A stretch of 64,000 nucleotides of DNA from Gammaproteobacteria bacterium. Lineage in GTDB: Bacteria > Pseudomonadota > Gammaproteobacteria > Pseudomonadales > Azotimanducaceae. This document shows positions 43,462 through 46,715 of this stretch, in pieces; positions within the stretch are counted from its first letter, which is position 1, and the number at the start of each line of letters is the position of its first letter. Under the pieces are notes generated by a model. It saw nothing but the letters and a program-made list of their open reading frames with translations, had not been told where the DNA came from and made no database searches. Location: the NCBI GenBank assembly GCA_002690865.1, contig NZGG01000037.1:1-64000 (forward strand), written 5' to 3'. The position numbers were made by a program, and so were the translations under genes.

Positions 43462-45021
43462 ATGGCGCTAAAACCAGCACTTACTTTAAAAATGGGTCAG
43501 CAGCTAAGGATGACCCCCCAACTGCAGCAAGCAATTCGTTTACTGCAGCTCTCCACCGCCGAATTAGAACTAGAGATACAACAAGCACTAGAAACTAATC
43601 CAATGTTGGAAGAACTGAGCTTAGAAGACGGCAACAACGGCGATGAACCAACAACGCTTGATAGTCCTCAAGGACTGGATGAGAAAACAGATGAGGCATC
43701 TTCACTAGTAAGCGATCAGAAACTTGATGGAGCGAGTGTTGATCATTCCTCAGACGCTGAAGTTGATGGTGAACCAATCCTCGATTCTGCTCAACAAATT
43801 GAAGAAAGTAAAATATCAGAGGATCTGCCAGTGGATAGCGTCTGGGAAGATGTCTTCGATGACGCTATCCCATCCACAAATTTTAGGAATGATGTTGAAA
43901 GTGATGATTCTTACTTAGAAGATAGTAGTAGCGAGGGAAACTCGATTCAAAAACACTTATTGGAGCAAATAAATTTACTGCGGCTATCTGATAAGGACAC
44001 ATTTATTGCTATCGCCATAATCGATGGATTAGATACTAATGGGATGCTAACAATTACAACTGAGGAGGTTTTAGCTAGCACACCACACGAATGGGAGGTG
44101 GAACAGGATGAAGTGGAAGCGGTCCTAAACTTAATGCAGCATCTAGATCCAATAGGAATTGCATCGCGAAATATTCAGGAATGTTTAACGATCCAACTAT
44201 TGAGTCTCCCAACTGATACGCCATGGAAAGAGCAAGCCACAGAAATAGTAGAACATTACATTAGGCATCTCGCAAACCGAGATTATGGGACAATCAGTAG
44301 AAAAACAAAGCTGACGGAGAGTGACCTCAAGGAAGTGATCGCTCTGATTGTTTCATTGAACCCGCGGCCAGGAAGTTATATTGAAGACAGTAAGATTGAA
44401 TATATTGAGCCTGATGTTTTTGTGTCAAAAAAAAATAATCGCTGGTCAGTAGAACTTAATCCCAAATCAGCGCCTAGGATAAGAGTGAACCCTGAATACG
44501 CTTCATTGATAAGTCCCAAAATGAAGACTAGCGACAATACCTATCTTAAAAACAATCTTCAAGATGCGAGATGGTTTATCAACTCTTTGCAACAGAGGAA
44601 CGACACACTCCTTCGAGTGGCCACTAAAATCGTGGAATTTCAACGGGGCTTTTTAGAATACGGTGAACAAGCTATGAAGCCGTTAGTCCTTCATGATATT
44701 GCAAATGCTGTGGATCTTCATGAATCAACTATTTCAAGAGTCACCACACAAAAATATATGCATACTCCTGCTGGGGTATTCGAATTAAAGTATTTTTTTT
44801 CCAGTCATGTAAGCACACATGCGGGAGGAGAGGTTTCTTCCACGGCTATCAGGGCCATCATTAAAAAATTGATTTCGGAAGAAAACCCAAAGAAGCCTCT
44901 TAGCGATAATAAAATATCAAGTTTGCTTGCTAAGCAGGATGTTAAGGTCGCTAGGCGAACAATCGCAAAATACAGGGAGTCGCTACTTATTCCTCCATCA
45001 AATGAACGCAAGCAACTCTAA
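43462..45021 (+). CDS. rpoN: RNA polymerase sigma-54 factor
   Basis: Region I QQLRMTPQLQQAIRLLQLSTAELELEIQQALETNPMLE; RpoN box ARRTIAKYRE. Confidence 0.98.
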   Translation: MALKPALTLKMGQQLRMTPQLQQAIRLLQLSTAELELEIQQALETNPMLEELSLEDGNNGDEPTTLDSPQGLDEKTDEASSLVSDQKLDGASVDHSSDAEVDGEPILDSAQQIEESKISEDLPVDSVWEDVFDDAIPSTNFRNDVESDDSYLEDSSSEGNSIQKHLLEQINLLRLSDKDTFIAIAIIDGLDTNGMLTITTEEVLASTPHEWEVEQDEVEAVLNLMQHLDPIGIASRNIQECLTIQLLSLPTDTPWKEQATEIVEHYIRHLANRDYGTISRKTKLTESDLKEVIALIVSLNPRPGSYIEDSKIEYIEPDVFVSKKNNRWSVELNPKSAPRIRVNPEYASLISPKMKTSDNTYLKNNLQDARWFINSLQQRNDTLLRVATKIVEFQRGFLEYGEQAMKPLVLHDIANAVDLHESTISRVTTQKYMHTPAGVFELKYFFSSHVSTHAGGEVSSTAIRAIIKKLISEENPKKPLSDNKISSLLAKQDVKVARRTIAKYRESLLIPPSNERKQL

Positions 45022-45154
45022 TAGTATAGTTATTGCCTCCAGCGGCTTTTGTTACTCAAAAGCATGGGCGTTCGAGCAGACTCTAGCAAAGCTACCTTGT
45101 CAGAATATATTATAGTAAATGGAGCCAAGCCGGGTTATTCAGGGCCAAGTATGA

Positions 45155-45580
45155 ACCGAGATAAGTAACGATTCGATTCCGATACCAGAAAAAACAATCG
45201 CAAATACAGAGGGTATGAGCAAAAAACGTACACTAGACAAACATTTTAGGATAGTAGCTGAAACTGGACCCGGGGCTACGCAGGAAAAATTCTATAACAA
45301 GTTAATTGCATATAAAATCGGACTTACCGCTATAGGTAAAGGTATCGCGACACTGTATTGCCGAGTTGACTGCTCAAAAACTTTTGATAGCCTCTTCAAG
45401 CTGGCGAAAACAAACGACGTTAACGCAACAGATGGAGTTTCTGTAAGAATAGTATTTGTTTTAATTGCAGCGCAAAATGGGGCTGCTAGCCGATCGCACC
45501 ATTGCCTTTACTCGCAAGCAAATTTGAATTTACGTCAAATGCTTTTCGAAACGAGCTCCTCTAGGCAAAAAATGACATAA
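45155..45580 (+). pseudogene. ptsN: PtsN (EIIA-Ntr)-like protein, catalytic His replaced by Tyr; probable pseudogene or repurposed
   Basis: SIPIPEKTIANTEGMSKKRTLDKHFRIVAE...KLIAYKIGLTAIGKGIATLYCR...ATDGVSVRIVFVLIAAQN aligns by eye to PtsN; IGKGIAIPH is IGKGIATLY here. Frame opens upstream of ATG 45215 without a standard start. Confidence 0.78.
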
Positions 45581-45708
45581 ACTTTACAAAACTATAGGAA
45601 TCTATTTTGATATGGAATATCAAGGTAATATAGCAAACTAGTAATAGAGAGAAGATGAACATAAGAAAAAATTATGTGGAAGCTACGTAACTAACTTGGA
45701 GTGCCATA

Positions 45709-46560
45709 TTGATTACGCTTATCATTATAAGCGGTAGATCAGGTTCAGGGAAAAGTACCGCTCTCCATGTTCTTGAGGATATGGGGTTCTACTGTATCGA
45801 CAACTTACCTATTACTCTACTAAAACCTTTGATAAAGCATCATCCTATACAGCCGCGAGTAGCAGTAAGTATCGATGCACGGAATATCCCCGAAGACTTG
45901 TCACATTTTCCTGAGATATTAGACACTTTTGATCCTTCATATGTAAAAGCAAAAGTTGTATATCTTGACTCTAGCAGCAGTACTCTATTAAAGAGATTTA
46001 GCGAAACGAGGCGCAAACACCCCTTAAGCGATGGAAATCGTGATTTACAGGAGGCATTGGAATTCGAATCCACATTACTCGAACCAATTTCGAATCTCTC
46101 TAATTTAGCAATTGACACGACTCTTCTTTCAATGCATGAACTGAGGGATATTATTAAATCTAGAGTCGCAAGCATTAACCATAAGTTTGCCTTACTTTTT
46201 CAATCATTCGCTTACAAAAATGGAGTTCCTATCGACGCAGATCTCGTATTCGATGTGAGATGTCTCACCAACCCTCACTGGAAACCAAATCTACGAAATC
46301 TTACTGGGCGCCACGCACCCGTTAAGAATTTTCTGCAAGAGCAATCTGAAGTAGTCTCCATGTATAACGATATACTTCATTACCTTGAATCTTGGTTACC
46401 TAAGTTCGAGGCCAACAATCGAAGCTATATGACAGTTGCTATCGGCTGCACCGGAGGGCAGCATCGATCAGTTTATATTGCAGAAAAACTTTATTACCAC
46501 TTCCAAGATAAATGGGAAAATGTACAGATCAGACACCGAGAACTATACAAAATCAAATGA
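45709..46560 (+). CDS. rapZ: RNase adapter / nucleotide-binding protein RapZ
   Basis: IISGRSGSGKSTALHVLEDMGFYCIDNLP...DVRCLTNPHW...VAIGCTGGQHRSVYIAEKL. TTG start. Confidence 0.97.
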   Translation: MITLIIISGRSGSGKSTALHVLEDMGFYCIDNLPITLLKPLIKHHPIQPRVAVSIDARNIPEDLSHFPEILDTFDPSYVKAKVVYLDSSSSTLLKRFSETRRKHPLSDGNRDLQEALEFESTLLEPISNLSNLAIDTTLLSMHELRDIIKSRVASINHKFALLFQSFAYKNGVPIDADLVFDVRCLTNPHWKPNLRNLTGRHAPVKNFLQEQSEVVSMYNDILHYLESWLPKFEANNRSYMTVAIGCTGGQHRSVYIAEKLYYHFQDKWENVQIRHRELYKIK

Positions 46561-46715
46561 CTCTTTGTAATACAGTTCTGAATAACAGAAATCGTCTACA
46601 TTCGTGTGCAAGCTGCGAGGCTGAGGTAGAGCTATTCGGGGAAGGGAATAATGAAGAAGTAGTAATCAACAAGTTAATCGAATTCATTAGACCAAAATTT
46701 GGTGAGGCCGAATGA
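46557..46715 (+). pseudogene. ptsO: PtsO (NPr)-like remnant with internal deletion, 52 codons
   Basis: MTLCNTVLNNRNRLHSCAS (HPr N-terminus-like) joined in frame to CEAEVELFGEGNNEEVVINKLIEFIRPKFGEAE (HPr C-terminus-like); conserved position after rapZ with ATGA overlap. Confidence 0.72.

Follow-up and report, generated by a model that had tools for sequence, protein, structure and literature searches.

A probable ptsN pseudogene in the rpoN operon of a gammaproteobacterium that lacks ptsP and carries a broken npr

We analysed a 64-kb stretch of a gammaproteobacterial genome (the window; its genome is G000), in which the region between rpoN and rapZ is of interest here. The operon order rpoN-(hpf)-ptsN-rapZ-npr can be recognized in the window (Table 1): rpoN and rapZ are intact, remnants of ptsN and npr persist, and hpf is deleted. 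Sequence homologous to ptsN extends from approximately 45151 to approximately 45600, and 45155-45580 covers most of this remnant. The first-pass annotation had named the open reading frame between rpoN and rapZ a PtsN (EIIA-Ntr) homologue and had proposed a profile search against PF00359 and TIGR01419, which bears out the assignment. The remnant exceeded the cut-off of Pfam PTS_EIIA_2 (PF00359; 29.8 bits against 27, E = 6.8e-7, profile positions 7-107 of 144), and its best NCBIfam match was PtsN itself (TIGR01419) rather than an unrelated family, at 28.2 bits and thus far below the equivalog cut-off of 138.7. Against a local profile made from the PtsN sequences of 119 relatives, positions 45182-45487 scored 67.9 bits, whereas shuffled controls reached at most 7.5. 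The remnant resembles the PtsN of gammaproteobacterial rpoN operons in its position between rpoN and rapZ, its operon neighbours and approximately 105 residues of sequence, but differs in lacking the start, the active-site His and Pro, the RE motif and the C-terminal reading frame.

Table 1. Features of the rpoN-npr region of the window. TMED1 is the nearest relative (G005).
Feature	Position	Strand	Evidence or remark
rpoN (sigma-54), intact	43462..45021	+	NCBIfam PRK05932, 665 bits; 84% identity to TMED1
Gap at the position of hpf (hibernation-promoting factor)	45022..45150	+	Gene deleted in the window; carried by G002, G003 and G006
Apparent ancestral ptsN start (ATG AAC ...)	45151..45168	+	Runs into TAA 45166-45168; nucleotide alignment with G005, G003 and G001
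ptsN, probable pseudogene body	45182..45487	+	EIIA-Ntr sequence in one frame; local PtsN profile, alignment, PF00359 match
121-aa open frame from the only ATG	45215..45580	+	By-product of decay, unlikely to be a gene
Active-site segment, ...AIGKGIATLYCR...	45325..45364	+	GIAIPHCR in intact congeners
ptsN, probable pseudogene 3' part	45502..45600	+	Different frame; TAG at 45562-45564 and 45595-45597; Smith-Waterman
rapZ, intact	45709..46560	+	NCBIfam RapZ, 346 bits; 81% identity to TMED1
npr/ptsO pseudogene, C-terminal third of NPr (EAEVELFGEGNNEEVVINKLIEFIRPKFGEAE)	46608..46715	+	Start and most of the body gone

Compared with intact orthologues at the same locus, the window's ptsN carries disabling lesions: where PtsN has an open frame with a start across the whole domain, the remnant has frame breaks at its 5' and 3' ends and in-frame TAA and TAG codons. 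In the nucleotide alignment, the distance from ATG 45151 to the PExT motif differs in length from that in TMED1, and because of this change the ancestral frame reads into the TAA at 45166. The earlier observation that homology continues upstream of the sole ATG into a frame lacking a standard start is upheld, as no in-frame ATG, GTG or TTG precedes 45215, and ATG 45215 aligns to an internal Ser/Thr codon in relatives. The active-site motif GIAIPH reads GIATLY, as first noted, so that Pro-His is lost and Tyr occupies the phospho-His column; the RE pair of the LiaRExxG motif is also damaged in the alignment, with one codon missing and the other substituted. A second frameshift lies at approximately 45464-45502, beyond which C-terminal homology moves to another frame, and the 121-aa frame accordingly ends in approximately 37 residues unrelated to PtsN. 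The displaced 3' part (LPLLASKFEF..RNELL*AKND) aligned to the C-termini of congeners G003 and G001 (LAMLARKFES..RNGLLEAKD) with a Smith-Waterman score above those of all 2,000 shuffles. Between the two breaks, a core of approximately 93 codons stays open, with no stop inside. Judged from sequence, either frame lesion alone would be disabling, and the His-to-Tyr change would be one substitution among many.

A PF00359 match was present in 52 of 58 related genomes, and the phospho-His column held His at 121 of 123 retrieved loci, a partly redundant set in which the two Tyr exceptions are copies of the window itself. The locus comparison proposed in the first-pass annotation recovered full-length ptsN with GIA(I/L)PHCR at the same position in congeners G001, G002, G003 and G006, and the Tyr form in no relative. 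Intact ptsN at this locus had been named in advance as grounds for refuting the original reading; such relatives exist, yet they indicate that the window holds a decayed orthologue, not an error. The nearest relative, 'Gammaproteobacteria bacterium TMED1', is 81-86% identical to the window's genome in lptB, rpoN and rapZ, whereas its ptsN matches the remnant at only 48% identity over 106 aa. This nearest orthologue differs from the window's in being a full-length open frame of 159 codons in which the His is still present, within an eroded motif (GKRISKPHCW); the two genomes are alike in lacking ptsP and hpf and in having a broken npr. Congener G004 shows neither ptsN nor rapZ, which we did not count as evidence of loss because its contig stops right after rpoN and makes this genome uninformative. 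In our partial literature search, no PtsN that naturally lacks the His was reported. As a separate observation, intact GVAIPH-bearing PtsN occurs in G040 and G008, where the searches gave no EI and, for G040, no HPr either; these may be orphan PtsN proteins or an effect of incomplete assembly.

We searched for the phosphoryl donors of PtsN across the window's genome and its relatives. The EI N-terminal domain (PF05524) was found in neither G000 nor TMED1 and was present in 29 of 34 relatives. A direct protein search with a congener's PtsP returned only a weak 55-residue match, and a whole-enzyme EI model gave only swivel-domain and weak partial matches in both genomes. The model's matches in G000 were not counted as EI because the PF05524 and direct PtsP searches both found none; they are mostly confined to the PEP-utilizer swivel domain of other open reading frames, and the weakest (E = 4e-4) reaches into the N-terminal part, at positions 8-120. 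The search for ptsP suggested at the outset thus shows EI-Ntr to be absent from G000 and TMED1 by domain model, whole-enzyme model and direct comparison. In eight G000 open reading frames of approximately 600-970 aa, similarity to the EI model is confined to the swivel domain; many such matches also occur in G005, G001 and G008, and the set looks like a large paralogous family.

In G003, ptsP lies directly behind rppH; the equivalent slot in G000 comprises approximately 80 bases before the next gene, and in TMED1 it is occupied by a scar that is 44% identical to residues 1-61 of PtsP. The ptsP deletion behind rppH (L161, 2594-2776; L160) has left a short scar in TMED1 and almost nothing in the window's genome. 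HPr/NPr (PF00381) was found nowhere in G000, and the npr remnant downstream of rapZ scored 15.6 bits against a local NPr profile (model positions 55-89 of 89; best shuffle 8.2). The npr of TMED1 is interrupted by a TAA. EI-Ntr (PtsP) together with NPr (PtsO) in one genome, by which we recognized a PTS-Ntr phosphorelay, is thus absent from G000 at a completeness of 99%.

The dN/dS comparison proposed in the first-pass annotation revealed relaxed selection on the window's ptsN. Synonymous sites were near saturation and a codon model with free branch lengths gave impossible omegas in the rapZ control, so this model was dropped and branch lengths for the ptsN core were anchored on rpoN and rapZ. 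Anchored omega for ptsN was 0.48 on the window branch and 0.26 on the TMED1 branch, against a background of 0.086. The corresponding values were 0.12, 0.09 and 0.065 for rapZ and 0.02, 0.01 and 0.035 for rpoN. Forcing the window's ptsN to the background omega cost 2*dlnL of approximately 42, and fixing it at 1 cost 10.6, so that selection is relaxed yet not fully neutral across the whole branch. The absence of a stop in the 93-codon core, together with an omega below 1, indicates that constraint on ptsN persisted along part of the branch, in better agreement with a recent or incomplete loss than with an old one; on the simplest reading, selection acted for part of the time, and simple mixing gives an estimate of approximately 40% of the branch without constraint.

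These sequence comparisons make it highly probable that what remains here of ptsN, a standard gene of the rpoN operon, is a pseudogene, on which selection would have relaxed after the phosphoryl-donor chain was lost through deletion of ptsP and breakage of npr/ptsO. The first-pass annotation had left two options, a pseudogene or a protein that works in an unphosphorylatable state. Strong support for the former comes from the 5', active-site and 3' lesions, the loss of ptsP and npr, and the relaxed selection; the latter finds no support, as the frame has no start of its own, approximately one quarter of the C-terminal domain lies out of frame and no relative is His-less. In the proposed path, an ancestor would have lost the donor chain; PtsN without phosphoryl input would then have lost its regulatory value, and frameshifts, stops and active-site substitutions, of which His-to-Tyr is just one, would have built up as selection relaxed. 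TMED1 would represent an intermediate state, in which ptsP is gone, npr is interrupted by a stop and the still-open ptsN has an eroded motif. That ptsN decayed because the proteins passing phosphate to it were also lost is thus the apparent link; we infer that the donors were lost before ptsN decayed and that their loss brought the decay about, an order that rests on one sister genome. The best account is a probable step-by-step loss of PTS-Ntr in a marine lineage with small genomes (2.2-2.4 Mb; other members of the genus have 2.8-4.8 Mb), in which ptsN began to decay sooner, or decayed more quickly, in the window's species than in TMED1; the marine origin we infer from the sister's TMED name and its companions.

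A variant of this history, which we regard as improbable, is that PtsN outlived its phosphorelay in this two-genome lineage: unphosphorylated PtsN would have been kept for a while for a dephospho role and would have decayed later in the window's species, the open, His-bearing, motif-eroded ptsN of TMED1 being the still-visible stage of that retained protein. PtsN is known to act in unphosphorylated form on K+ transport and other targets (PMC11808508; PMC13104625), which makes an unphosphorylatable PtsN conceivable in principle. Very unlikely, in turn, is a functional PtsN-like protein in the window itself, acting in the dephospho state on TrkA, KdpD or YcgO. The unphosphorylated protein is the active form for several Escherichia coli targets (PMC11808508; PMC13104625), 140 codons of the core read without a stop and whole-branch omega is below 1; against this, omega is approximately fivefold the background, the Tyr form has no counterpart among relatives, and the N-terminal part has no standard start. 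Initiation at 45215 would drop the first approximately 22 residues, and with the last approximately 37 out of frame the fold would be without its C-terminal elements; with both the start and the C-terminus of the frame defective, such a protein is unlikely.

That ptsN is intact and merely looks broken through a sequencing or assembly error has scarcely any probability. The genome is in 46 contigs, which would allow for such an error, but the lesions are several and independent and are accompanied by many substitutions; the remnant has diverged from its sister far beyond rapZ, rpoN and lptB; npr is itself a remnant and ptsP is lost elsewhere in the genome. Neighbouring open reading frames are intact, and intact frames of at least 100 aa cover 88% of the window, so that frameshifts are not a general fault of this assembly. 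Error is thus unlikely given how many lesions there are, the parallel loss of partners and how intact the window otherwise is. Chance resemblance or membership of another family, for which the sub-equivalog NCBIfam score could be cited, is ruled out to a negligible probability by the profile score against shuffles, the Pfam match and the collinear position between rpoN and rapZ.

Read as a pseudogene, the window's ptsN would be a new instance of well-known, lineage-specific, stepwise gene loss, and neither a new mechanism nor a new kind of protein. Nearly all relatives keep this regulatory gene; the window's bacterium holds a broken remnant of it. Specialized bacteria have been described that lost part or all of the PTS phosphoryl chain (PMC2405797). 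There, as here, loss of EI and HPr accompanies lifestyle-related gene loss, in obligate parasites and other specialists, whereas the window's lineage is marine with small genomes, and its partial remnants make the steps visible. Acinetobacter is cited in PMC13104625 as lacking PtsN but having PtsP and PtsO. The locus would illustrate cleanly, and on a small scale, how a three-protein phosphorelay is dismantled in steps, with the donor deleted, the carrier truncated and the acceptor decaying, while sigma-54 and RapZ remain intact in the same operon. It also carries a caution: where partner genes have gone too, the lack of a catalytic residue in a single sequence is usually a sign of decay.

Elsewhere in the operon, the ribosomal S30AE domain of Hpf (PF02482) was found in neither G000 nor TMED1 and is present in most relatives; the hpf sequence of G001 also looks degraded, with no S30AE match. 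Five sigma-54 activators are retained in G000, and rpoN is therefore presumably still used.
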